Below are positions 5,893 to 51,980 of a stretch of 64,000 bases of DNA, piece by piece; position 1 is the stretch's first letter; every line of letters begins with the position of its first letter. A program made the translations under genes and the position numbers. Under the pieces are notes generated by a model. It worked only from the letters and a program-made list of their open reading frames with translations. It searched no databases and had not been told where the DNA came from. The DNA is from Phyto melanocephala (taxonomy: Eukaryota > Arthropoda > Insecta > Diptera > Rhinophoridae): positions 12,429,001 to 12,493,000 of the forward strand of contig OW799234.1 of NCBI GenBank assembly GCA_941918925.1. The letters run 5' to 3'.

Positions 5893-6366
5893 ACTAGGCG
5901 GGATGCCACGCCCTATTGAAGAATAAGTATTAGATATTATATATCACGAAAGTTAATGCAGCTAGAGTCTTAAAATTAAGTACGGTAAACTTTGACATCC
6001 ACACGAACATTTGGGTAAAAAATGGGCAGACTTGAAATAGTAGGCGTGGCCACATGAATTAAATACTAAAATTCGTATATTTGGAAAACGATATCGATTA
6101 GAGTAGTAAAATTTTTCAAGAACAACTTTGACACACAAATGAATATTTAGGCAAGAAATAGGTGCATTGTCAATAGTGGGCGTGGCACCCACCATATGAA
6201 TTAAATACTAAAATTCGTATATTTGGAAAACGTTATCGATTAGAGTAGTAAAATTTTGCAAGAGCAAGTTTGATATTCGAATAAACATTTATGGAAAAAA
6301 TGGGTGCATGCCATATGAATTACATACTTAAATTTGGGGTGACGAAGCACACCGGGTATTAGCTAG
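5893..6366 (+). mobile_element. Helitron, 5'-truncated
   Basis: The 3' end reads GAAGCACACCGGGTATTAG then CTAG at 6363-6366 and is followed by T, the Helitron CTRR|T signature. Internally there are tandem monomers of 142 bp (ATTCG anchor at 6071 and 6213) carrying GGGCGTGGC and CGATATCGATTAGAG words, shared with the copies at 15.0 and 23.7 kb. The 5' TC end and the roughly 190 bp that follow it in those copies are missing here; sequence starts at the GGGATGCCACGCCC block. Non-autonomous: no Rep/helicase coding. Open frames across it on the minus strand are translations of the monomer. Confidence 0.8.
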
Positions 6367-15040: not shown

Positions 15041-15828
15041 TCTATATAAAAATCAATGTATGTTTGTATGTTTGTTTGTGCTTTTTAGACGGTTAAACGG
15101 CTGGACCGATTTCCTTGAAATTTTCACAGAATCTTTCCGTATGTCTGGAAGGAACTATAGGCTATACTTTGGTTTGAAATTGTAAGTGGGCGGGGTGCCA
15201 CGCCCTATTAAAGAATAAGTATTAAATATTATATATCACGAAAGTTAATGCAGCTAGAGTCTTCAAATTAGGTACATCCACACGAACATTTGGGTAAAAA
15301 ATGGGCGGACTTTCAATAGTAGGCGTGGCCATATGAATTAAATACTAAATTTCGTACATTTGGAAAACGATATCGATTAGAGTACTAAAATTTTTCAAGA
15401 GCAACTTTGACACCCAAATAAACATTTCTGGAAAAAATGGGTACATTTGAAATAGTGGGCGTGGCAGCTCTCATAGCAATTGAATACTGAAATTCGTATA
15501 TTCGCCATAACAGTTAGAGTACCCAAATTTTGTACGAGTAGGTTTGACATCTATATGACTATTTTGATAAGAAATGGATGCTTTAGTAATAGTGGGCCTG
15601 GCACCTGTCATATGAATTAAATACGAAAATTCGTATATCTGAGAAGCGATAATAGTTAGAGTACCCAAATTTAGCAAGAGAAACTTTGACGTCTATATGA
15701 TAATTTGAATAAGAAATGGTTGATTTAGTAATAGTAGGCGTGGCACTTGCAAAATAAATATATTTTTGAACAATAAAATTTTTATTTCATTACGATGGGG
15801 GTGGCGAAGCACACCGGGTATTGGCTAG
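15041..15828 (+). mobile_element. Non-autonomous Helitron, both ends present
   Basis: It begins TCTATATAAAAATCAATG directly after A (15040) and ends GCACACCGGGTATTGG-CTAG directly before T (15829), the canonical Helitron TC...CTRR ends in an A|T target. After a leader (ACGGTTAAACGGCTGGACCG) it contains tandem monomers of about 137-142 bp (ATTCG anchors near 15350, 15492, 15629) with GGGCGTGGC. There is no Rep/helicase reading frame, so mobilisation would need an autonomous relative. Confidence 0.9.
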
Positions 15829-16893: not shown

Positions 16894-17127
16894 AAATATC
16901 GGTAAGCAAACCAAAGAAACAAACAACTATTACTAATTTTTTCCAGTCATAAATTTAAACTTTAGTATTACATGAAAATAAATAAAATTCATAACCTTTA
17001 AATGTATTTAAAATAAATAAATTAGTTGTTTTAATAAGAAAAAAATTCAACCTTGATTTAGTAAACAACCTGGATATAGAGAAATCGCTTTGCAAAAATT
17101 AGTTCACTCTTTCCAGACAGCACTGTA

Positions 17128-19624: not shown

Positions 19625-20958
19625 GGGTGATTTTGACGTATGCCTCGATAGTATGATGGTGATATCTTTAGAGAAGAAAGTTTATATGAAAATCTCTTCT
19701 AAAAATCCAAAGACAATGCTGCATTTTTTTTAAATAAAACAAAAACGGTTATGGATATCAATGAAATTATTTATTCCTGTGAATGTACGTTCGATGCCAT
19801 TATGTATGGAACTCGATTTTTTTTGCATGGCCACCAAGGGCACGCTTGCAGAAGTCCAGACGCTGAACCCAATTTTCGACGGTTTTCAAGCAAAAATCAA
19901 GCGATACTGCTGCAATTTCACGTTCGATATTCGTACGAAGTTCATCAATCGTCGCTGGCTTGTTGGCATAGACCATAGACTTGACGTAGCCACACAGGAA
20001 ATAGTCTAACGGCGTCAAATCGCGCGACCGAGGCGGCCAATCGACTGGACCATTTCGTGAAATAACACGTTCTCCAAACTTGGTTTCCAATAGATTGATT
20101 GTGACATTCGCTTTATGGCTTGTGGCACCGTCCTTTTGGAACCACATGTCGTCCAAGTCCATATCATCCAATTGGGGCCAAAAATATTCTGTTATCATTG
20201 AACGGTAGCGATTCCCATTCACAGTAACGTGCCGGTCTTGATCATTACGGAAGAAGTACGGCCCAATGACGCCGCCGGCTCATAAACCGAACCAAACCCT
20301 AATTTTTTCGGGATGCAATGATGACTCATGGAGTACGTGTGGATTGCTGTCTGACCAATAACGCATATTTTGCTTATTGACGAAGGCATTTAGACAGAAA
20401 TGAGCCTCATCGCTCATCGAATTCCCAATTCACGAACATACGACGCTTCTGATGGTCAAGCGGCTTCAGTTCTTGCGTCAATTTGATCTTGTAAGGATGT
20501 AGGCCAAGATCTTTTCGCAAAATTCGCCACAACGACGTCACAGAGATGCCCAACGCTTGAGAACAACGTGTGAGAGACACATTCGGGCTTTCTTCAACTG
20601 AAGCCTCAGCGGCAGCAATATCCTCGACACTACGGGCACTTCTTTGTCTCACTGTCACGAAAACATTTTATACTGTGCCTGTGGATTAAAGTTTTTCCAC
20701 TAGACGCTCAATTGTTGATCTGGTAGGACGATTATGACGACCATAAATTGGACGTAGCGCTCTTAACGTTGAGGCCACTGACTTCGAATTTCGGTAGTAA
20801 ATTTTAATAATTTCGACTCGTTGGCTCGTATATCTTTCCATCATGAAATGGCAAACCTTACTGAAGAGAAATGTCAAAAGAGCGGCAAAAAATATGGCGT
20901 CGTTTGCTGTCCCTATCGGTGTACTTTTGTAGCGTGCCTGCGGAGCTATGAGAATCAC
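19625..20958 (-). mobile_element. DD41D mariner (rosa-like), nearly full length
   Basis: The element runs on the minus strand from about 20958 to 19625. Ends are short related sequences: GGGTGATTTTGACGTATG at 19625 and, on the other strand, GTGATTCTCATAGCTCC from 20958; only about the first 8 bases match, so the TIRs have diverged or the right end lost its terminal bases. Between them lie a leader, the transposase relic and about 170 bp after the stop. No flanking TA duplication is visible at the right edge. Confidence 0.8.
19800..20844 (-). pseudogene. DD41D mariner transposase, lightly damaged
   Basis: The start is MERYTSQRVEIIKIYY (ATG at 20841 or the one just before it), with a first helix-turn-helix, a second one (QALGISVTSLWRI, then HPYKIKLTQEL) and a catalytic core: first D in SDEAHF, second D in FQKDGATSHKA, third D in LTPLDYF. 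I count 41 residues between the second and third D, which defines DD41D and fits the rosa lineage of Tc1/mariner. The C-terminus is GGHAKKIEFHT. Damage is limited: a frameshift between the two HTHs (about 20660-20690), one just before SDEAHF (about 20415), and an in-frame stop where GLWAGG is expected (about 20280). Most complete transposase in the window, but not functional as it stands. Confidence 0.9.
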
Positions 20959-21385
20959 ATCAACAATGCCTTTTGATAATATTATATTCATTCGGCCGAT
21001 TGAGATACAGATGAAATATGAGGCAGCCTCGACCGCTACTAAATTAATAAAAATAGGTGAATGGTAAGTAAGAGACCATACAATCAGATATTAAAGAATA
21101 ATTGATATCTTACCAATGGAAAATATAATGAGATATAAGAGCGTAAGTTAACTGCATCATCAAAATACCAGAGCAGCAAGTATGGGATCCAGTTATTAGG
21201 GTAAGAAATACCCAGGGCATCAATCTTTATACGAACGAATTAAAGATTGGTGATCGAACTGGAATGAGTTTATATGGCATAAGCCGAAACAGAGGCAAAT
21301 ACTTACGTCTACCAGATCACAATACTGTTTTACAGTCTGAGAAATTACGGAAGGCATTTAATTTAATAGATAAAAGAGACGGATA
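20959..21385. other. Unassigned sequence between two mariners
   Basis: Less A/T-rich than average and probably holds decayed upstream parts of the mariner at 21390-21668, but I could not align any motif with confidence. Confidence 0.4.
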
Positions 21386-23701: not shown

Positions 23702-24378
23702 TCTATATATATAAAAATCAATGTGTGTTTGTATGTTTGTGTGTTTATATGTTTGTGTGTTTATATCTTTGTTTGTGCTTGATAGACGGTTAAACGGCTG
23801 GACCGATTTCCTTGAAATTTTTACAGAATCTTTCTGTATGTCTGGAAGGAACTATAGGCTATACCTTGATTTGAAATTGTAAGTGGGCGGGGTGCCACGC
23901 CCTACTAAAGAATAAGTATTAAATATTATATATCACGAAAGTTAATGTAGCTAGAGTCTTCAAATTAAGTACGGTAGACTTTGACATCCACACGAACACT
24001 TGGGTAAAAAATGGGCGGACTTGCAATAGTAGGCGTGGCCACATGAATTAAATACTAAAATTCGTATATTTGGAAAACGATATCGATTAAGGTAGTAAAA
24101 TTTTGAAAGAACAACTTTGACACCCAAATTAACATTAAGGCAAGAAATGGGTGCATTATCAATAGTGGGCGTGGCACCTACCATATGAATTAAATACTGA
24201 AATTCGTATATTTGGAAAACGATATCGATTAGAGTAGTAAAATTTTGCAAAAGCAAGTTTGATATTCAAATAAACATTTATGGAAAAAATGGGCGCATTA
24301 ACAGTAGTAGGCGTGGCACCTGCCATATGAATTAAATACTGAAATTTGGGGTGGCGAAGCACACCGGGTATTAGCTAG
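23702..24378 (+). mobile_element. Non-autonomous Helitron, both ends present
   Basis: Starts TCTATATATATAAAAATC after A (23701) and ends CACCGGGTATTAG-CTAG before T (24379). It has the same leader (ACGGTTAAACGGCTGGACCG) and 142-bp monomers (ATTCG anchors at 24060 and 24202) as the copy at 15.0 kb, but an extra TTTGTGTGTTTATATG repeat in the leader. No coding; the minus-strand frames at 23960-24362 are monomer translations. Confidence 0.92.
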
Positions 24379-33655: not shown

Positions 33656-35812
33656 ATTAAAACTAGACAATGGACTAGACTAGACTATAGATTAGACTAT
33701 GGACTAGACTAAAGACTAGACTATGGACTAAACAATAGACTAGACTATAGACTAGACTATAGACTAGACTATAGACTAGACTATAGACTAGACTATAGAC
33801 TAGACTATAGACTAGACTATAGACTAGACTATAGACTAGACTATAGACTAGACTATAGAATAGACTATAGACTAGACTATAGACTAGACTATAGAATAGA
33901 CTAGACTATAGAATAGACTAGACTATAGAATAGACTATAGACTAGACTATAGAATAGACTAGACTATAGAATAGACTAGACTATAGAATAGACTAGACTA
34001 TAGAATAGACTAGACTATAGAATAGACTAGACTATACTATAGACTAGACTAGACTGGACTATAGACTAGACTGTACTATAGACTAGACTACACTATAGAC
34101 TAGACTCTAGACGAGAATGTAGACTATAGACTAGACTAGACTATAGACTAGACTAGACTGGACTATAGACTAAACTGTACTATAGACTAGACTAGACTAT
34201 AGACTAGACTATAGACTAGACTATAGACTAGACTATAGACTAGACTATAGACTAGACTATAGACTAGACTATAGACTAGACTATAGACTAGACTATAGAC
34301 TAGACTATAGACTAGACTATAGACTAGACTATAGACTAGACTATAGACTAGACTATAGACTAGACTATAGACTAGACTATAGACTAGACTATAGACTAGA
34401 CTAGACTATAGACTAGACTATAGACTAGACTATAGACTAGACTATAGACTAGACTATAGACTAGACTATAGACTAGACTATAGACTAGACTATAGACTAG
34501 ACTATAGACTAAAATGTAGACTATAGACTAGAATGTAGACTATAGACTAGAATGTAGACTATAGACTAGAATGTAGACTATAGACTAGACTAGACTAGAA
34601 TGTAGACTATAGACTAGACTATAGACTAGAATGTAGACTAGACTAGACTAGAAAGTAGACTATAGACTAGAATGTAGATTATAAACTAGAATGTAGATTA
34701 TAGACTACACTAGAACATAGACTAGACTATAGACTAGAATAAAGACTAGACTATAAATAAGACTATAGACTAGACTATAGCCCACAAACTAGACTAGTCT
34801 ATAGACTTTAGACTAGACTATAAACTAGACTAGTCTATAGACTAAAGACTAGACTATAGACTAGACTAGTCTATAGACTAAAGACTAGACTATAGACTAG
34901 ACCATACACTAGACTAGACTAAAGACTAGACTTTAGACTAGATTATAGACTAGACTAAAGACTAGACTTTAGACTAGATTATAGACTAGACTATAAACTA
35001 GACTATAGACTAGACTATAGACTAGACTATAGAGTAGACTATAGAGTAGACTATAGACTAGACTATAGACTAGACTATAGACTAGACTATAGACTAGACT
35101 ATAGACTAGACTATAGACTAGACTATAGACTAGACTATAGACTAGACTATAGACTAGACTATAGACTAGGCTATAGGGTAGACCATAGACTAGGCTATAG
35201 GGTAGACCATAGAATAGACTATATACTAGACTATAGGGTAGACCATAGAATAGACTATATACTAGACTATAGACTAGATTATTGACTAGCCTATACCCCA
35301 GACTATAAAATAGACTATAGACCACATTGAAGAATTGTTTAGAGAGGATATTATAATTAATTATAGACTCAACTATAGTTTATAAACTGGATTATAGACT
35401 AGACTATAGATAAAACTACAGTCTAGACCAGTGCTATTCACCCTATTTCCAGTTGGTACGCGAATTCTTTTAAAATTTTAACGATTTCTATTTTGCAATT
35501 GGAAACAAAAAGAAAAATCATCCTAAAAGTATACCTTTAATGTACATGTTCTTATGTTTTTTGTAATTTTTATTGTTTTTTTTAATTTTATTGTTTTTTA
35601 TTATTAACAAATAAAATAGATTAAAAATTTTAAAATTGTTTACATTATATTTTTTTGGTGGTACGCGAAAAGTTTGTCGTGAATTTAGTGGTACACGAGC
35701 CAAAAAGATTGAATAGCACTGGTCTAGACTATAGATATAACTAGAGACTATAGATAAAGCTACAGACTAGGCTATAAGCAAGACTATAAGCTATTCTGTA
35801 GTCTAAACAACA
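33656..35812. repeat. 12-bp minisatellite (ACTATAGACTAG), about 1.9 kb
   Basis: The unit ACTATAGACTAG repeats almost perfectly in long runs (for example 34190-34500 and 35040-35170), with higher-order variants: GAATAG units at 33850-34030, AATGTAGACTATAGACTAG units at 34510-34690, and TAGTC-containing units at 34795-34900. A hAT MITE interrupts it at 35429-35721 and decayed units resume to about 35812. The 118-codon minus frame of repeating VYSL residues exists only because the unit length is a multiple of three. Confidence 0.95.
35429..35721. mobile_element. hAT MITE inserted in the minisatellite, 293 bp
   Basis: 12-bp inverted ends CAGTGCTATTCA are flanked by the perfect 8-bp duplication GTCTAGAC (35421-35428 and 35722-35729), which is itself a variant of the surrounding repeat. 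GGTACGCGAA and GGTACACGAG words repeat in both subterminal zones. The interior is A/T-rich; the minus frame at 35518-35703 is not supported as coding. Confidence 0.92.
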
Positions 35813-36850
35813 ATTTTCATTATTCTAGAATTTTTTCAGATTTTACAAAATTTTGTGATAAAAATTTTTGTACATTTTTTTTATGATCTCTTCTTTTGTA
35901 CAAAATCAAAAAAATATGAAATACAAAATTACAAAAAAAAATAATCGAAATTAAATTTTAGCCGTAAAAAAATTATTTTAAAAATTATTTATAAAACTAA
36001 AACGAAAAAATCATCATTCACTCTTCATACTCAACCACTCATAACCAAAATGTAGACCGATAGATAATAAAGAAAATATTCACCCAAATATAAACTACTG
36101 GTCGTGTTAAATGGTGCAGTAAAAGATAATATTTTTATGAGATTTTGTTGTATACTTTTGCGCCATACTGTGGCGCAATAAGTTATTAAATGGTTTATAT
36201 TTTCTATAATAATATTACACTAAAAACAACAACAAAACAAAACATACATGTAATAAAATCAAACGTGATTTTAAATGGAAAAACTTACAGAAAAATATTT
36301 TTTTTTATGATTTTCGCTTATATTTGTAGTTTTACCCCTCTTCATTTTAATGTCTGTACTATGTATATGGTGTATTGCAGTTTTATTGAAATTTGTTACA
36401 AAAATAAAAATATAAAAAAAATTCAGTAAATTGGGAACTCTTTGGGGGGTTGTTGGTTGGTTGCTGCTATTGCGAATAATAACTGAATTGTATACATTTA
36501 CACATTTTTATTGCTTTACACAGTTCGAAAACTACAAAAAAAAAACTAAGAAAAAATGATTTTTATATTGAAATTAAAATTATTGTGGTTTCAATTCATT
36601 TACTGTTGCATTGACTTAATTTATTATTCGACTGCCACTCTATACATAACAAATTCTGATTAAATATTTATTTAAATAATGAAAACACAAATGCATTAAA
36701 ATATTCATGTGTTTAAAAACAGAACATAAATGATGATGTAACTGAGCTTTGCCAGAGAAAATGCCTGGTTAGAATACAATACCTAGTGACAAAAACTTAT
36801 GAAAAAACCGTAAAATAAATATAAAAGGAACATTGTAATATTTTCTAAAA
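35813..36850. other. AT-rich non-coding DNA, no gene seen
   Basis: Low-complexity frames only; left flank of the inverted motif array. Confidence 0.5.
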
Positions 36851-38200
36851 TAGTGTTGGGAAATTTTCGCTAAATAAAAAAATAAATATAATTTTAAGTT
36901 ATATATAGTTAATTTGTAATATTTTTTTAATCCATTAAATGATATTTATTAGGATACATATAAAAATTGTATGAAATTAATAATAACAAAAACAGTGTTG
37001 GTTAATTTTGATTGATTTAAAATATTCAACCCTAATAAAATAAAAACTAACTTTAAAAGAAGAACCTACACACAAAGTAATGGAAATATTTTACAAAACA
37101 CAATATTACTTACAACACAAATTACAGTGTTGGTTAATTTTGAGTAATTTCAACCGTTGAACTTTAAAAAATTGTACTCTAAAACGTATTACTACTAAAA
37201 ACCGCTAACAAAATCTTATGAAAATTTTTTAAAAACCAAAAAATCACTTAAACAAATAAAAAACAGTGTTGGAAATTTTTTCTCATATTACATATTTTAA
37301 TAATTTTGCAACAAGTTAGATTAGAGTTAATAAATTTTCGAAAAATTTTTATATTTATATACAAGAAAAAACAGTGTTGTTTCATTTGATCAAACCTAGC
37401 ATAACTACAATTTAAAACAAAAAAAAAAAAATAATTAAAACTTAAAATGACCATAACTTGAAAATTTTAACACACATTTGATAATGTGTATTCCAAACAG
37501 TTTGAAAAATAAATAAATTTTACCACAGTGTTATAACAATAAAAAATGTTAAAGACAAAAAAGAGCTGCTAACATTCAGTTACAAAGAAAAATAGTGTTG
37601 TTATATATATTTTCAATTTAAAACGTAAGTTAAATTAAAAACCTTTAAAAATATGCACTAAAAAACATGAAAATCAGAAAAACAGTGTTGGTAAATTTTT
37701 CTAAAAATCAAATATTATGTCATAATTTTTCTTAAATTTTCATGTAGTTACATTAAAAAAATTTAATTTCATTTGAAAATCTTAAATAGTCAATATTTAA
37801 AAAAAACAGTGTTGGTAAATAATGAATTAAATTAAAGGATTAACTTTTGGAAACTGCCTAATTAAAACAAAAATCTTCCATAATTAAATTAAAAAACAAA
37901 GGTGTTAAAAATGTATAACAAAAATCTAAAAGCGGAAAAACGGTGTTGGTAAATGTTTTTAAATATTAAAAATGTTGCATTGATTTTCTTAAATTTTATA
38001 TTTTTTATCTTGTTAAATTATTTATTTTAAATATATCAAAAGAAATAAATATTGAAATAAAAAAAATATAATCAGTGTTGGTAAGTTTTGTTTATTTTTA
38101 AATACAATATATCAAGATATTTAGATATTGCTTTTTAAAGGCCAATTTAAGACAGTATCTAATTTCGACCTCAAAAAAAAACTTATAAACAGTGTTGATA
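36851..38200 (+). repeat. Left arm: 12 spaced CAGTGTTGG motifs
   Basis: The consensus ACAGTGTTGGTAAATTTT, or partial forms, occurs in plus orientation with its GTGTTG core at about 36853, 36995, 37127, 37266, 37374, 37528 (GTGTTA), 37594, 37685, 37809, 37943, 38075 and 38192. Spacing is mostly 108-142 bp. Sequence between motifs is A/T-rich and poorly conserved. No coding potential. Confidence 0.88.
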
Positions 38201-38307
38201 AATTGTGTCAATATTATATATGTACGTATTTGTTGTTTTTTAATATTTACTTTCCAACTGCAACATATTTTTCATTATAACCTATACATACACTTTTATA
38301 TGAACCT

Positions 38308-39046
38308 TTTTATACCCTTCACACAGTGAAAAAGGGTATATATAGGTTTGTCATTCCGTGTGAAATTTCTACAATTTTCATTTCCGACCCCATAAAGTAT
38401 ATATTTTCTGAAAGCTTATGAATAGAGGAGTCGATTAAGCCCTGACCGTCTGTCCGTCTGACCGTCTGTCCGTGTGTATGTTGAAATCAACTTTTTGAAG
38501 CCCCCCGACATAGGTTGGACCCGGGTAAGGTATTAAAATATCAGAAATATTCGGGAGTAGATCGGTATTGAAAATCAGAAACATCGGTACATAAACAACT
38601 GAGATATGAGCAAAAACCCACGACCACCTCGATTTTCTTTTCATAAAAACAACAACATACATACATACAAACGTGTATACTGGTTAGAGAAAACGTGGCA
38701 TCGAATCCCAGCTGAGGCAAAAAAATTTTTTTAAAATTTTTTTTTTTAATTTTTTTTTTATTTTTTTTTATTTTTTATTTAATATATTATATATATTTTT
38801 ATTATTATTTTTTTTTATTTTTTTTTTTTTAATTTTTTTTTTATTTTTTTTTGTTTTATATATATTATATATGTATATAATAATTTTTTTTTTTTTAATT
38901 TTTTTTTTTTAAATTTTTTTTTTATTTTTTATTTTTTTTTTGTTTTTTTTAACATACATACGTGAATTTACTGTTATTGCATGACTACACGTTGTGAAGG
39001 GTATATAAGATTCGGCACGGCCGAATATAGCGCTTTTACTTGTTTT
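38308..39046 (+). mobile_element. DINE-1/INE-1-like element, copy B
   Basis: Same order as copy A: 5' hairpin with CACACAGTG, GTCY tract (38445-38475), GTGGCATCGAATCCCAGCTG block, T-rich tract (38717-38950), GTGAAGGGTATA, ATTCGGCACGGCCGAAT hairpin and TACTTGTTTT end. It lies in the spacer between the two inverted motif arms, just after the last left-arm motif. Confidence 0.85.
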
Positions 39047-39920
39047 ATTATTTTTTTTTAATTTAAAAATTATGTTCCTATTAAAACTACAATTTATAAA
39101 TATTAGAAAATTTTTTTAATTTTCCTGGTAATGCATTTAACATATGAACCAATTTTTTCTCACTGACTGTTAGGCGGCACGGCAATTGTATATTTGAGTT
39201 TATAATAACCCCAATTCGAAAAAAACAATAAAATATAAAAAAAAACATAAAATATTGAAAATGGCTGTGCGGAGAAGAACTACACTGCACTCAGTCAAGC
39301 ACAACGCACACAACAGGGAGGTCGTCAACAAATCAGTAAAAGTCAAGGTTATTCTGCTTTCATCGTCGTATCAACCCCTACCCCCAATATGTTGTCCTTT
39401 CCTATATATTTATGTTTCTCTCTCTCTCTCTCTCTTTCTGAATTCTATTGGGATTTTAATGATTTAAAACAGAGGGTTATTGGAATAACATGTAACAAAT
39501 TTTGAGATTTTTTTCAACAAAGATGACCAATTAGTAACAATATGACAACACAAATAACTCATTTATTTTTTTTAAATACAACAAAACAGAAACAAAAGGC
39601 CAGAAAAAATGACAACTGTTTTACAATAAGGAAATTAAGAAAAAAAAATTGTGTATGACATTGTTTTACATTTCAACAAAAAGTGGCATATTGAAAGAAC
39701 AGAAATAATTATTATATTTTGTTCTGAAATAAAAAACTGCTCATAATACTTTATCGATGATTTTAAAATATATAGTAGTTTAGGCTTTTAAATAAAACAA
39801 GTAATTGAAGAAGTTATAAAACAAATAAAATATTTAGTTTTTCTTAAAATTAGTATCGAATGTGAAATGTTTTAAAAATATTTCAATAAATTTTTAAATA
39901 AAATCAAAATTGTAAGTTAA
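39047..39920. other. Spacer between inverted arms, no gene seen
   Basis: Contains a (TC)n tract at 39417-39436 and a slightly GC-richer patch at 39255-39400. No transposase or other coding recognised, which matters for interpreting the flanking inverted arms. Confidence 0.5.
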
Positions 39921-39923
39921 TTG

Positions 39924-41712
39924 ACCAACACTGTCTTGTTAATACTTTAACAGACTTAAAAATAATTTGTATTTATATTTAATTTAAGTTTTTCCATAAC
40001 AAAACGCATTACAAGTTATTGTCAAATTTTAAAATTGTTTTAAAAATCTTTGAATTCTATTAAAATTAACCAACACTAATTAAGAAAAAACTTAAGATTT
40101 AAACAATTTTAAAGAAACCGTGTTGGGAGTTTAATAAGAGAGTAAAAAATTTACTAGTAGATATTTAAAAATTCATAATTTTAAGTTATTTGTTAAATTA
40201 ACCAACACTATAATAGACAATTCTGGAGTTGTATAAAAATTTTATTAGGAAGCAATAAAGTTTAGTGTAAAGTGAAATATGTTTTAAGAAATTTTTAATA
40301 TTTTATACAAAAAAAAAAAATTCCAACACTATTTTTTTTAATTTCTTTTGAAAAAATTAAAAAAAATATTTGGATTTATATATAAAAAAATTAAGTTATT
40401 AAATAACAAGACACATTAGAATTTATAATTGTAAAATAAGTTTAAAACTACTTTAGTTTCATTAAAATTAACCAACACTTATTGTTAAAAGGGGTAAAAT
40501 ATGTAGTACTCGCTTCAAAAACCATGTTGGAAGTTTAATAGATTAATAAAATTGTAAAAAAATTACTCTATTATGACGTGAAAAATTTGTAGTATTTAAA
40601 AAAAATTTATATTTTTGAAATATTAAACAATATTGTTTTCTTAATTCTTTAATAACAATTAAAAATATATATATATATTTATATAAAAAAACGAAGTAAT
40701 AAAATGGCAAAACACATTAATTAAACTTAAAATTAACCAACACTAATTTCAAAAATGCTTAAAATATGTAGTATTCGCTTCAAATATTTAAGGAAATCAT
40801 GTTTAGAGATTGAAAGTTTAATAAAAGTGCAAGACCAAATTTATAAATCCATAATATTTAAGTTGTTTGTTGAAATAACCAACACTACAGTACGAAATTC
40901 TAGAGTTTTATATAAATTTGATTAAGAAATAATAAAGTTTAGTGCGAAGATGACTATGTTATAAAACTTTCCAAGTATTTATACAAGAAAAATCAATGTT
41001 TCTAAAAAATTTACCAACACTGTTTTTTCAATATTTACTTAAATTTCAAAATATTTAAATTTATGTAAAAAAAACCTTAAGTTATTAAAAATCAAATTTC
41101 ATTGCCATTAAAAATCGTTAAAATTACATTAACTTTATAAAAATTAACCAACACTGTTTTCTTAATTGTTTAATGAAATTTAAAAATATTTAAATTTATA
41201 TCAAGAAAGATAAATTATTAAATAACAAAATACCTTGCAAGTGGAATAAGTGAAAACTGTATGAAATTACATGAACTTCATAAAAATTAACCAACACTAA
41301 TTTCGAAAAACTTAAAATTTGTGGTTTTCGCTTCAAAGATTTAATTAAAACTTGTTATGAGTTTAAAAGATTATTAAAAATATAAGATAAATCTTGATAT
41401 TCAAAGATCAGAAATGTGTAAATATTTTTTAGTTAACCAACACTATAGCAGAAAATTTTAGATTTTTTTACCAATTTTATTAAAAAAACTACTACTTAAG
41501 CTTAACATGAATTGCAACATGTTGCAAAAATGCCTTTATTTTTACAAAAAAAAAATCAGTGTGGTTAAAAATTAACCAACACTGTTTTTTTAATTTTTGT
41601 CTAAATTATAAATTTCTTAAAAGTCTTTGGGTTACTCAAAAAACTGCTTAAAGAATTATATAAAATGTTTTATATATTATTATTATTTTTTAACGGAAAT
41701 TAACCAACACTT
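39924..41712 (-). repeat. Right arm: 13-14 spaced CCAACACTG motifs, inverted
   Basis: The reverse complement of the left-arm motif (AAAATTAACCAACACTG) has its CAACAC core at about 39926, 40071, 40203, 40324, 40473, 40738, 40880, 41025, 41149, 41292, 41438, 41577 and 41705; a decayed copy near 40625 fills the one double gap. Spacing is 121-149 bp. A higher-order repeat is visible: the block that follows the motif with AATAAAGTTTAGTG occurs after the motifs at 40203 and 40880 (weaker at 41438), and a CGCTTCAAA block after those at 40473, 40738 and 41292. No coding. Confidence 0.88.
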
Positions 41713-43839
41713 ATTTTAAAAATGTTAACAATAGCAACGACAACATTAAACAAGTAAGAGCGCTATATTCGGCCGTGCCGAATCTTATATACCCTTCACA
41801 ACGTGTAGTCATGCAATAACAGTAGTTTGTATCACCATTCATCCTATATGATATACGTACATACATATAAAAAACATACATATATGAAAACATCCCATTG
41901 TAAAATTATAAATTCACGTATGTATGTTAAAAAAACAAAATAAAAAAAAAATTTAAAAAAAAATAAAAAAAAAATATTATATATATAATATATATAAAAC
42001 AAAAAAAAAATAAAAAAAAAAATAAAAAAAAAATAAAAAAATAATAATAAAAATATAAATAATATATTAAATAAAAAATAAAAAAATATAAAAAAATTAA
42101 AAATAAAAAAATATAAAAAAATTAAAAAAAAAAAATATAAAAAAAATAAAAAAAATTTTTTTGCCTCAGCTGGGATTCGATGCCACGTTTTCTCTAACCA
42201 GTATACACGTTTGTATGTATGTGTGTTGTTGTTGTAATGTTGTTTTTGTGAAAAAAAATCGAGGTGGTCGTGGGTTTTTGCTCATATCTCGGTTGTTTAT
42301 GTACCGATGTTTCTGATTTTCAATACCGATCTACTCCCGAATATTTCTGATATTCTAATACCTTACCCGGGTCCATCCTATGTCGGGGGGCTTCAAAAAG
42401 TTGATTTCAACATACACACGGACAGACGGTCAGACTGACAGAGCTTAATCGACTCCCCTATTCATAAGCTTTCAGAAAAGATATACTTTATGGGGTCGGA
42501 AATGAAAATTGTAGAAATTTCACACGGAATGACAAACCTATATATCATAGTACGCAAAAAATTATGTTTGTGAATACAATTTCATTTTTTTCGCTTGTTT
42601 TTTGGATTATGCTCTGAATTGAAAAAGATAAAAGTTGTGAGTCAAATTCTATTTAGTATTTTTATTTCTTTTCATTCTTTTCGCAAATAATATAAAAATA
42701 TTTTTTTTTATTGATTTCGTTTGCAATACAATTTTTATTTTTAAAATTCGTCGTGTTTCATTCCTCTCACAAATTTAATATATTTCATTCTAAGCAAAAT
42801 GAATCAAAAACGAATAATTTGTTTTACAAATTTCCTCTTTTTATTTGTTGTTGTTTGTGGTATGAAAAAAATCTTAACATTAAATAATGTACAGTAGCAA
42901 TCATAATAATTTAAACAACACAATGCGTTCTTAACAGATTGGATTTTGCTTATATGTATATAAATAGCTGTATCGTGTATAAATATTATATTTTATATAT
43001 CCATACATACATATATAATATTTTTATCCTCATAAATTTAATTATAATTGATTTAAAGATGCGGGCAAGAAAACAACTTTATAGGTCTAATAAAATAATT
43101 AGGCATTTATATAAAAAGGTAAAGTCTTAAAAGGATATGCGTATTAGCAAAACACATATATAAACATATATACCTGAAAATGTAAACAGAAAATTCATTA
43201 TATTCCTAATTTTTTTTACTCAGTAAAGTAAAAATCCTTGTTTGTCTTAAATTGAAACTCGGTATAAAAGCTACTTTATATATAAGCATATGTCAAGCGC
43301 CTATAGGTAAAAAGTTGTGTGTCACACTGTACCCAATGCCTCTTTTAACAACAACAATACCTAAAAAACAAACGACATCAATAAAAAGGTATATGTGAAA
43401 ATCATCCCTTGCAAGGAATACAACACATACATTTTTTTGGCGCCACATAAAAAAAATGTGTGTATAGAAAAAAATGTAATACAGTCGAATTCGGTTAAGC
43501 TGCCGCCGTTTAATTGAAGAAATCACTTAACTACAATTAAATATATTTACTATATTTTAAAGAAAATGAGTTCGTTTAAGGGAAAATCAGTTTTACAGCT
43601 TTTATGTTTTTAAAGCTACAAACTTCAATAAAGGAAACATTGCTTAGTAGAAAAAATTTCTTATTAATATACGGCAAAATACAATGCTACAGCTAATTTG
43701 TTGCACTGTAGTGCAACATTTTCTCTTATTTTGTTTAAAACAATATAAAAAGTAGAAAATCTATTTAACCAAAATGGTTTCAATTTGTCCAAAGTTTTTT
43801 ATTAATGAAAATCTTGCATAAGCCAAAAAAATAAATCCT

Positions 43840-44115
43840 TTAATTATCAATTTCCCTTACCCGAATCCAACTGTATACGTGTAATGTTTGTAAGTATGAT
43901 GTTTGTGTACCGCTTAGCAGTTTAAAAAACCAACTCACAATTAGAAGTATTGCTTTTATGAATGCAAGAAATACAAAAACAAAAACATACCTATGAAACA
44001 TTGTTCTTCCGGCGCCTAACATTCTTAATAAAATTGTGTATGAATTCATGTCCCAAAAAATTAAAAAACAAGTTGCCACAAGCATTAACCTAAGATTCTT
44101 TACAAAAATTCTCAT
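43840..44115 (-). other. Unidentified 91-codon frame inside the hAT element
   Basis: The frame begins MRIFVKNLRLMLVATCFLIF and reads like a short membrane-associated segment (LLRMLGAGRTMFHR) before turning into low-complexity residues after a GTATGT splice-donor-like site at about 43990. It could be a captured exon or chance. No homologue recognised. Confidence 0.25.
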
Positions 44116-44239
44116 AATAAAATTTTAACAAATTTATTGATTTGTATTAGTTTAATTTTTATTTATTCATCGGACAGTAATTCAAAAAAGATATATACAA
44201 TATGAGTCTAAATAAAAACAAAATATATAAAAATAAATA

Positions 44240-44536
44240 TTATATCATATGTAATTGTTCCGTGGTTTCGTTTTTTATTGTTACATATTCAATTAAATTC
44301 TTATTAAGTTTTACTAAAAGCAAATTGTTTATAGTATCTTTTGATAGCTTTGATCTCATTTTTGTTAATATTATTGAGAGAGCACTAAAAGCTCTTTCGA
44401 CGGAAACTTGTGTTGCCGGGACAATAAACTGAAATAATTTTTCATGGCTGATATATTGTGAAGGTACGATCAAACTACTTGTCAAGCCTTTCGTAGTATT
44501 TGTAAAAATGTGTTTGTATGTATTATACCGTCGCAT
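44240..44536 (-). pseudogene. hAT transposase C-terminal dimerisation domain
   Basis: A 98-codon frame carries the hAT C-terminal signature: QFIVPATQVSVERAFSAL followed by TKMRSKLSKDTINNLLLVKL and a short tail to the stop. The S-x-ERAFS and K-R-KL-D--N-L--L elements are diagnostic of the hAT dimerisation region, normally the last 80 residues of a 550-700 residue transposase. No BED finger or RNase H-like catalytic segments were found upstream on the minus strand, so the gene is truncated. AATAAA signals follow on the minus strand near 44150-44160. An open plus frame opposite (44202-44432) is a shadow. Confidence 0.88.
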
Positions 44537-45411
44537 TGTTGTGTGTCTCTTTTTATATCAATCATTATCGGTGTAACACATACAATCACATTTTTTACAA
44601 AGCCTATCACAATGCTTTCTAAGTTGCTTGAAGCATTAAATAACAGCAGGCTGGCAACTTAAATCTGTCCAAATTGAAATACATACGATGTTTGACGCCA
44701 TCATAGCTGCACGCCTACATTTGGCGGTGGCGCCTATATAATTTTGAATATACATGTTTTTATAACAAAAACTTTTAGGGATAAAAAAGAACGAAAATTG
44801 TATGTACATTTATTTATAAAACTAATTTACGATTCAAGTAAAAATTCCACAAATATAATAGAAAAAATCAGATAAATCAGATTCATAGTTTTTGTTTTAT
44901 TATACCTAAGTCTTATTTGTATTTTTAGTTGATCACTTAATATTTTACATGCATAGATTCATACGTACATACATGCATGCATAAAATATATTAACTAAAC
45001 ATTATAATTTTTTTAATATATTCTTTAATTCCTAAAATGGTAAAATTTTTCCCATTAACACAACGAAAATGATAAACTACAATGGCAACGCTGTTAACTT
45101 TTCTTTAAGGAAAATAAAAATTCTATTTGTGAATCGATTTTTTTTTAATTTTTCGATTATGTTCTTTGAATGAATGATTCATGTAAGAAATTTTATATTT
45201 AAATTGTGGTGAGAAATTTATTTTCAATTTTTTTAAAATATCATTTGTCTCGCAACTTTTATTTTTAAAATTCGGAAAACAAAACAAATTATTCGTCACA
45301 ATGTGGAAAATTTAATTCATTCAAATTAATATCATTCATGATTAATATCTATTCGATTGATTTGCGTACTATGCTATATATACCCTTTTTCACTGTGTGA
45401 AGGGTATAAAA

Positions 45412-47380
45412 GAGGTATCTCCATAATTTTTTAACTACTTTTCAGCTATTTATTTACAGAAAATTAAATAATTTCTATTAAAATTTCGTACTTTTTCATA
45501 CAAACAGCTGATATACAGTGTGTGACACAAATATTTGAACAAAACTATGAAACAAATACTTCAAGAAATACACCTATTACTACGAGAATTTAATTTTATT
45601 TTAGAAAATTTATTGGACATACTTTGAGTTAAAACCTGCTTGAAATAAATTTGTAGTGTGAACGCAAAATCAGATGTTAGTAGTTTTGATGTTAAAACCA
45701 GGTTTTAACTTTAAGTGTGAAACACTGTGATAAAGCCCAATTGACACGAGAACTTGAACCTAGTGATAGTTCACGTTTATAAGTTTGTTTAATGGTTTAT
45801 GAAACATGAACAATGTCAACCTTTTGAACAAATTTTTTCGAAGCGATGAAGCGTCTTTTTATTTTGAAGGCCGTAATAATTTTTTGTCGCGTTTAGGAAT
45901 CAAAGAACTCAGAAATATTTGTAACATGCTTTTTTTAATAACAGGTGGCGTAAAAAGTCATCACCATAAAGTGAGATATTATAATAATTTAAGAGCGAGA
46001 AATGTTAACTACGCTTTGACTTCATTATTACATGGATAGTCGTATATTTACCTCAAAAAGGCGAAATAGGTATTTAATTTCCTAAAAAATAAAACAAAAA
46101 ATTACAGCTAAAGAACAACGTCTTCGTACTTTTGCGCCAGCTTGTATTTATTAAATGATTTTATTTATTACTTTATTAAATTTTTTTTCTACAAATTTCT
46201 GTATTTTTTTTTTAATTTTCTCGAAAAATATGGTTTTAAATTTATTATTTTTTTTTTGCAAATTTATCTTCCTCTGCTTTCATTATTTTTTTTTTATTTT
46301 TTTTATATCTATATATTTATTGCAATTTGCTCACGTCAATGTCAATGTAATAACCTTTTAATGCTGTTGTTGTCGTTACAGTAATTTGTTATTATTATTT
46401 GTTGTTGTTATATCCAACAATGTACGTGTGTTTTTTTTCTGGTACCGGTACCAAGATTGCAAAATTTATAACTGAAGTGGGAAATATGAAATTTATGTTT
46501 AAAAATATTAAATAAAAAAAACATCGTCATCATCTTCCAAATACAGATGACAAAATAACACCACGTACTACAGAGAAAGAAAAATGACAGCACTAAGTAC
46601 TAGAGACTGCTGCTACCGTGCCAGTTAGAAATAGAGAATGAAAATATTTTTTTTTTCTATTAAACATACATGTCGCTAAAAATATGTGTGTCAAAGCGTA
46701 ACTTAGAGATAGATTTTATGGTTGCAAAAGTTGCTACAGTTTGTATAACTGAAAATATTTGGGTGCTGGCAAAGCAGAGATTCTCAACTTTTAAAAAAGT
46801 TATAAATATTTAAATTATTCTGGCTTCTTCTTCGTCTTCTCATTTAGTTTTCCATATGAAAACATTAAATGTTTTAAATAAATCTTCCTGCCGCAATAGT
46901 CTCAGTATCTATTATAACGCTCATGCCAACTAAAAGACTTGTAACTGTCATGAATTGGATGTGTGGGAAATGACAGTCATTCTAGCTAAATAAATTAAAT
47001 AACTTTTTAATGAAATTCCTTCAATGAAAATGTTTAACAAGATGCATACGTGCAACTGTGCTTGCTTCTCCAACAATATTTTTAACACATTAATGATCTG
47101 ATAATCAAATAAAGACATTTTATCATCATCATTTCCAACATCAGCAATTTTATTGGCGTTAGAGCAAATGAAGAAAAATAAGAAGAAAAAAAAACAGGAA
47201 AACGAAATGACAACAAGACATGAGCAATAATTTTGTAATAATTTGTTCAGCAGACATGGTGCCTAAAAAAAAACACAAATATCAATCAAAAACCATATTA
47301 GCTCTTAATCCAAATAAGATAAATTGTTACAAAAAAAACTGAAAGCAATGATTGAAAATTTTATAAAATTGATTTATTTT
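45412..47380. other. AT-rich non-coding DNA, no gene seen
   Basis: 45590-45790 contains GTGTGAAC and GGTTTTAAC words in both orientations, perhaps an old MITE, without boundaries I can define. Open frames are T-rich low-complexity. Confidence 0.45.
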
Positions 47381-51126: not shown

Positions 51127-51980
51127 GGGTGATTTTTAGCTATTATCTTTTCGGCAACACTGGTTTAAACAGCTGACGCACGTTTCGTGTTTTGTTTCAC
51201 TGTCAAACATCTTCAGTTTGGTCTATAATTTAACCATGAATCGTCCTACAAACGAACAACGCTTGCAAATTATTGAATTTTATTCGTGCTCTGTTAAGAA
51301 AGTTTATCGCGCGCTTCTTATCGAAAAATTGTGTTCAGCGACAAAGCTCATTTTTGGTTCAATGGGTACGTTAATAAGCAGAATTGTCGAATTTGGAGTG
51401 AAGATCAGCCAGAAGCTTTGCAAGAGCTACCAATGCATCCAGAAAAAGTCACAGTTTGGTGCGGTTTAAGGGCTGGTGGCATCATTGGACCGTACTTCTT
51501 CAAAGATGATGCGAATCGTAACGTAACGGTGAATGGTGAGCGCTACCGTGAGATGATATCCAACTTTTTTTTTTGCCCAAAATGCAAGAGCTTGACTTGC
51601 ATGGCATGTGGTTTCAACAAGACGGTGCCACACAGCACGCTTACCAAAATTAAGAGGCGAGTTCAGTGAACATTTTATTTCACGTTCGGGACCAGTCGCG
51701 GGGACGCCTTTAGACCATTTTTTGTGGGGCTATGTTAAAGCTCATGTCTATACACACATGCCCGCTTCAATTGACGCATTGGAAGACAACATTGAAGCAT
51801 TTATTCATGAGATACCGGCCGAAATTTTAGAAAGAGCATGCCAAAATTGGACTAAGCGGATGGACCATTTGAGGCGCAGTCACAGTCAACATTTGCATAA
51901 AATAATCTTCAAACATTAAATTATATGGACCGTACACTATCGATTCAAATAAAGATTTCATGCATTTTTCTAAATTTTAT
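51127..51980 (+). mobile_element. DD41D-like mariner, deleted copy
   Basis: The 5' end begins GGGTGATTTTTAGC, like the end of the copy at 19625, followed by a leader and transposase. The 3' inverted end is not seen: after the stop and about 60 bp the sequence runs into DINE copy D at about 51983, so the end was lost or replaced. Confidence 0.75.
51236..51919 (+). pseudogene. DD41D-like mariner transposase relic
   Basis: MNRPTNEQRLQIIEFY starts the N-terminal helix-turn-helix, but after YRALL the sequence jumps to the catalytic core (IVFSDKAHFWFNGYVNKQN), so most of the DNA-binding domain is deleted. The core continues WCGLRAGGIIGPYFF, VTVNGERYREMI, a frameshifted GMWFQQDGATQH block with the second Asp, and TPLDHFLWGYVKAHVY with the third; some 10 residues before TPLD are missing, so spacing cannot be measured. 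The C-terminal tail (EIPAEILERACQNWTKRM, HKIIFKH) is intact to the TAA. Three frames are needed to read it, so it is non-functional. Confidence 0.87.

Follow-up and report, generated by a model that had tools for sequence, protein, structure and literature searches.

The question raised by this locus is why a short word is repeated about 25 times in two neighbouring blocks that point in opposite directions, and whether the change of orientation belongs to the original design of the array. The sequence examined is C2:12429001-12493000, the 64-kb stretch referred to below as the window, from a genome of 739.75 Mb in 9 contigs, the largest being 186 Mb, whose repeats and flanking PP1 exon point to a fly. 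The repeated site is 21 bp long and asymmetric, AAAAA[C/T]AGTGTTGGT[T/A]AATTTT. There are 23 good copies, 10 forward and then 13 reverse, and three weak sites beside them bring the array to about 25 copies. The logo of the 23 good sites is sharp and extends from about -5 to about +15: it is A-rich from -5, followed by C/T, AGTGTTGG, T, T/A and AATTTT. The columns beyond these 21 bp mostly contain less than 0.4 bit, with a few A/T columns reaching 0.6. The array is organised as follows:

36852-38198, plus strand: left arm with 10 good sites; two weak sites at 37527 and 37594
36852, 36994, 37126, 37265, 37373, 37684, 37808, 37942, 38074, 38191, plus strand: starts of AGTGTTGG in the left arm
39925-41711, minus strand: right arm, 13 good sites and a degenerate one at 40627, with multi-unit internal repeats
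39925, 40070, 40202, 40323, 40472, 40737, 40879, 41014, 41148, 41291, 41437, 41576, 41704, minus strand: good sites of the right arm
36832-36890, plus strand: outer left end, which resembles the outer right end (about 41673-41732) when the latter is reverse-complemented

The two opposed arms described in the initial annotation are real, and its counts of twelve and 13-14 motifs are obtained when the weak sites at 37527, 37594 and 40627 are included. Its statement that the motif does not cluster elsewhere in the window also holds. When up to three mismatches to the consensus are allowed, all 18 matches in the window fall within 36850-41585, nine forward and then nine reverse; the shuffle control gave a mean of 0.5, and none of 100 shuffles reached 18. 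Of the 21 exact copies of AGTGTTGG in the window, 20 belong to the array, where their orientation is uniform in each arm (7/7 forward in the left, 13/13 reverse in the right). With a profile trained on the 23 best sites, 23 places in the window score at least 15, a count that is not independent because these are the training sites, versus none in a 210-kb genome sample. A single site of that sample reaches a score of 12, whereas all 23 array sites exceed 15. The arms have their own site variants: position +9 is A in 7/10 left sites and T in 10/13 right sites, and C occupies position -1 in 9/10 left sites versus 4/13 right ones. Weak sites on the opposite strand within the right arm can be noted at 40119 and 40523.

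The sites are about 135 bp apart (mean 134, sd 14 in the left arm; mean 137, sd 12 in the right arm; intervals 108-157), where 37527 and 40627 are counted and 37594 is omitted, since its inclusion would give intervals of 67 and 90 bp. Comparisons of linkers, both left-left and left-right, are at the level of unrelated DNA. Right-arm linkers contain multi-unit repeats, strongest at shifts of four to five units (about 550-690 bp) and partly at six, which agrees with the higher-order repeat reported earlier for this arm. Apart from these repeats, the earlier view that only the short motif is constrained and the DNA between motifs varies was confirmed. Likewise, the array is neither a simple satellite, as it has no head-to-tail units of conserved sequence, nor a hairpin with matching arms, as the arms are unlike between sites. 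Beyond the site and perhaps the outermost ends, nothing common to both arms was detected, and a scheme of four-unit classes tying the left arm to the right one had no effect (class offset means from -0.37 to 0.01). Taken in order, the intervals of one arm correlate with those of the other (r 0.90, 9 intervals, permutation p 0.005-0.019); matching the arms by interval was rejected, because the match varies with the choice of weak sites and no clear sequence similarity is found in the matching register. The segment 41557-41585 forms a near-perfect hairpin of a site and its own inverted copy; in two related units (41014, 40323) this copy seems to have decayed.

Identity of the core is 0.847 in left-left and 0.846 in left-right comparisons, values inflated by the use of core letters in finding the sites; the flanks are at 0.685 and 0.693, and unrelated decoys at 0.694. 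In the duplicate pairs of the right arm (n=16), 204/227 core and 1070/1439 flank positions are identical, and in the four top-listed disjoint pairs the core (53/58) is better preserved than the flank (291/380; Fisher p 0.005). The sites are thus better conserved than the linkers, as in homotypic arrays. Since neutral decay should erase both alike, a core at about 0.85 beside linkers at the unrelated level indicates constraint on the sites. We regard this constraint as established; an evenly spaced word kept amid changed linkers suggests that it is read by a protein, so far a putative one.

Exact spaced AGTGTTGG pairs were found in 22 places of the 740 Mb: 14 at the locus, three in a second array (C1) and five scattered. 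A reversed-pattern control gave 33 places, a total reported without their clustering, so that the figure of 22 is not unusual by itself; this search is blind to arrays with an altered core or other spacing. Both exact genome matches of the consensus are at the locus, as are four of the 15 matches with one mismatch. Ten of the 11 off-locus places (C3:69208857 left out), taken as pieces of 1-3 kb, contain one site each at a score of at least 10. Dispersal of the motif genome-wide at the same density, which would have undermined the first interpretation, was not seen: at the array score the motif is absent from the 210-kb sample, and exact spaced pairs cluster at two loci only. As judged by the exact spaced core, the genome appears to contain no multi-copy transposon of this kind, nor does the motif appear to be dispersed. 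In viral contigs, the exact 21-mer and the spaced TTAATT pair gave no match, and a looser pair gave four stretches, none counted as a comparable array; two of the four, mutually alike, sit in a low-complexity coding repeat.

The C1 array (C1:161335749-161336444) is on another chromosome and contains six sites, all forward and head-to-tail, in a 128-bp unit. It was first spotted as a close pair among the two-mismatch matches listed, and the spaced-pair search found it again. Three of its six sites score at least 15. Invariant columns make up 13/21 of the site versus 54/107 of the remainder, i.e., the site is hardly better conserved, and the linkers are unlike those of the main array.

The change of orientation has to be considered together with the elements that surround the right arm:

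38308-39044, plus strand: HINE (Helentron-like) between the left arm and the spacer, with 5' TTTTATACCCTTCAC, its inverse GTGAAGGGTATA near the 3' end and the hairpin TTCGGCACGGCCGAA
39045-39916: part of the spacer without a further copy in the window, except for a 29-bp match at 17003-17031
39291-39326, plus strand: predicted core promoter made up of Inr TCAGTC (+1 at 39293) and, at +28, the DPE-like GGTCGTC with one mismatch
41750-42545, minus strand: second HINE, in inverted orientation; its 3' end is on the outer side of the right arm, about 38 bp from the last site, and its 5' end resumes at 45374-45416
42546-45373: hAT relic of 2828 bp that splits the second HINE, with ends CATAGTACGC...GCGTACTATG and the 8-bp duplication CTATATAT on both sides (read from the sequence)

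The 1.7-kb spacer of the initial annotation does lie between the arms, but 738 bp of it are a HINE repeat. The two bounding repeats fit the structural definition of HINE ends in the available text of PMC4067079, as judged from the ends of six longer copies in the window: the 5' end is T-rich and has a sub-terminal repeat, which recurs inverted near the 3' end, and the 3' end has a hairpin. The hAT relic contains a hAT dimerisation domain in the ORF 44243-44557 (Pfam), and its relatives in the 210-kb sample are an 843-bp piece with 89% identity (sequence L020) and a short piece (L006). Elsewhere in the window there are a 12-bp repeat, TAGACTAGACTA, arrayed over 1.6 kb (33676-35322) and transposase remnants at 19803-21090 (minus) and 51298-51666 (plus), which we take to be mariner-like; the ORF 20689-21090 contains a DUF4817 helix-turn-helix (Pfam).

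The block 39045-41749, which comprises the right arm and the spacer, is exactly bounded by the two inverted HINEs. When the flip is undone, the new junction is 156 bp long, compared with the observed intervals of 108-157, and the GC content of the junction piece (0.24) is just over the top linker value (0.23). The chance of such HINE placement is about 2e-4 under uniform insertion at the sampled density, and it would rise if HINEs prefer T-rich DNA, which they may. Flipping the block would restore a single head-to-tail array, which makes a secondary origin of the switch in orientation the more likely one. The two HINEs share 97.7% identity in their 5' parts, 91% in their 3' parts and 81% overall, including the T-rich tract, which appears not ideal for recombination. 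The 5' part of the left HINE is nearest to one subfamily and its 3' part to another; this mosaic pattern speaks neither for nor against recombination. The suggestive similarity of the outermost flanks counts against inversion, since it is not predicted by a flipped head-to-tail array: the pair 36852/41704 ranks 1/154, 2/154 and 2/168 among left-right pairs in three comparisons. The arm-specific site variants at +9 and -1 and the GC content of the junction piece also count against the explanation preferred here. Inverted repeats between the outer flanks were sought, and none was below E 0.079.

A start exon is located to the right of the window (C2:12507295-12507239, minus strand); it encodes MADFDLNVDSLIQRLLE plus one base and is followed by GTAAGT. 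A query sequence that we take to be PP1-beta matched this exon with E 6e-4 in the DNA examined, the runner-up being on the other strand of sequence L035 (E 0.29). All five PDB hits of the 20-residue exon piece are PP1 (one beta, which is the best, and four gamma; E 0.11 to 0.86). Since no further PP1 exon was found across the contiguous 12409001-12523000, and none was seen to the left, the window probably lies within the first intron of PP1-beta/flapwing, a minus-strand gene for a muscle and cell-division phosphatase; this intron would span at least 98 kb. In a table of PMC3137614, flapwing is given as 'A' in 12 Drosophila species, which is taken as Muller element A. A RuvB-like (TIP49) fragment is present at L037:9732-9965 on the minus strand (L037:4295 = C2:12507295); read from a nearby ATG it has a stop after nine codons, and it looks like a processed pseudogene.

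If the arms are convergent by design, two oriented arms would face a promoter in the spacer, their polarity would matter, as in promoter-flanking regulatory or boundary arrays, and the HINEs would be adjacent by chance. This is possible, though doubtful. The Inr and DPE pair, by what we take to be their consensus, is found at one place in the 64-kb window, against a mean of 0.2 for 20 shuffles, and at two in the 210-kb genome sample, and its falling in this spacer by chance has a probability of about 1%. The similar outermost ends, the uniform core orientation of each arm and the correlated intervals also fit such a design. However, it needs the coincidence in HINE placement, the interval match has the weakness already described, and the promoter, which is only predicted, points against the direction of the presumed host gene; with the flip undone, it would follow that direction. 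No Pfam family matched the two spacer ORFs tested. A fuller version of the convergent design seems rather unlikely: an orientation-locked array of about 25 putative sites would face a nested promoter in the flapwing intron and be selected for polarity and spacing. It would correspond in a fly to oriented boundary arrays, and the younger array on another chromosome, with its similar box, would be a second one.

A decayed satellite-like tandem repeat without host function, in which the site is a constrained box resembling the CENP-B box or a relic of earlier homogenisation, is unlikely, if less so than the alternatives that follow. The period of about 130 bp, the multi-unit repeats of the right arm and the head-to-tail C1 array with its similar box are consistent with it, as are three other short arrays of the window with a unit of about 137-142 bp (6050-6309, 15330-15746, 23978-24346) and spaced GTGGGCG-type words that recur in 4/26 other sequences scanned (L008, L009, L012, L018). 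Yet neutral decay would not have spared the core alone, and only two clusters, of about 25 and six sites, were seen. A Foldback/Galileo-like relic, whose long inverted ends with internal repeats would bind transposase at the site, is very improbable. Inverted arms around a core and suggestively similar outer ends recall such elements, and tandem repeats in Galileo ends were proposed as secondary transposase sites in the available text of PMC3573991, which gives the array a likeness in its multiple candidate binding sites. But the exact spaced core revealed no second copy in the 740 Mb, the two arms are not similar throughout as long inverted repeats would be, the two spacer ORFs tested gave no coding part, and a clear target duplication was not seen (the best by eye is AGGAAC/AGCAAC, 5/6, with ends that are not independently defined). 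This option of the initial annotation is therefore unsupported. Backward placement of the 2.7-kb block by the assembly, the other condition under which the first interpretation would fail, would also fit its exact bounding by inverted HINEs, but 9 contigs of up to 186 Mb suggest long reads, which would span 4.2 kb, and a real inversion explains the same geometry; we consider such an error highly improbable. Our confidence in these explanations overlaps and need not sum to 1, because the assembly error and the preferred explanation share the same original array. Pairing of the arms as complementary copies in the host pre-mRNA, already disfavoured, is the least credible. The sites of both arms are complementary within one transcript, but +9 matches in 34% of left-right pairings versus 58-62% identity within arms, and the 25 unit folds are mostly near simple shuffles (clearly below them at 36994, on one strand, 40323, 41014 and 41576; weakly at 39925). 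The Rfam gathering scan of the window gave no hit, and ARAGORN found no tRNA in it.

Among known systems, the gypsy insulator with its 12 Su(Hw) sites is an example of a fly homotypic site cluster. Like fly clusters of transcription factor or insulator sites, the array has many copies of one asymmetric site amid AT-rich DNA whose sequence is not fixed; it differs from the gypsy cluster in having about 25 sites, about 135 bp apart instead of tens of bp, in two orientation blocks, and its site does not appear to match the Su(Hw) site. CENP-B-box satellites hold a 17-21-bp box at a regular interval of 100-200 bp. A box of comparable size is held at a regular interval here, whereas the array is single and small, its left-arm linkers are unrelated and its box sequence is different. 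The tandem repeats of HINEs are near 150 bp in size, and HINEs abut both arms. Some HINEs carry tandem repeats according to the available part of PMC4067079, and HINE/DINE-1 elements with tandem repeats are described in that of PMC7492417. Unlike these, both HINEs of the locus have both ends without the array, which borders one of them at its 5' end and the other at its 3' end.

The explanation that we prefer, tentatively and at slightly less than even confidence, is a single-locus array of about 25 putative 21-bp binding sites that was born in tandem, is constrained at the sites only, is probably intronic and had its orientation switched probably secondarily. The array would have grown by tandem duplication of a unit of about 130 bp, for which the C1 array, younger and built of a 128-bp unit around a comparable site, can be cited, although the weak contrast between its site and the remainder and its different linkers count against this. 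The linkers may then have decayed while each site stayed constrained, a putative bound protein and the rough spacing being what is kept. One HINE would have inserted within the array and a second, inverted one beyond it, and recombination between them may have inverted the 2.7-kb block of right arm and spacer, as the geometry suggests. Among the options of the initial annotation, the tests favour the multi-site array, and its folding by inversion probably took place between the inverted HINEs at 38308-39044 and from 41750 onward.

In the first intron of flapwing, the array would act in cis, as a regulatory or chromatin-nucleating element. If the sites are bound, it would be a large homotypic array of natural origin whose 21-bp recognition sequence is clear; the factor could then be isolated directly, and it could be tested how this factor affects a conserved phosphatase gene. 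The locus is also a possible case of mobile elements turning a head-to-tail array into a mirror image, which calls for caution before convergent arrays are called designed.
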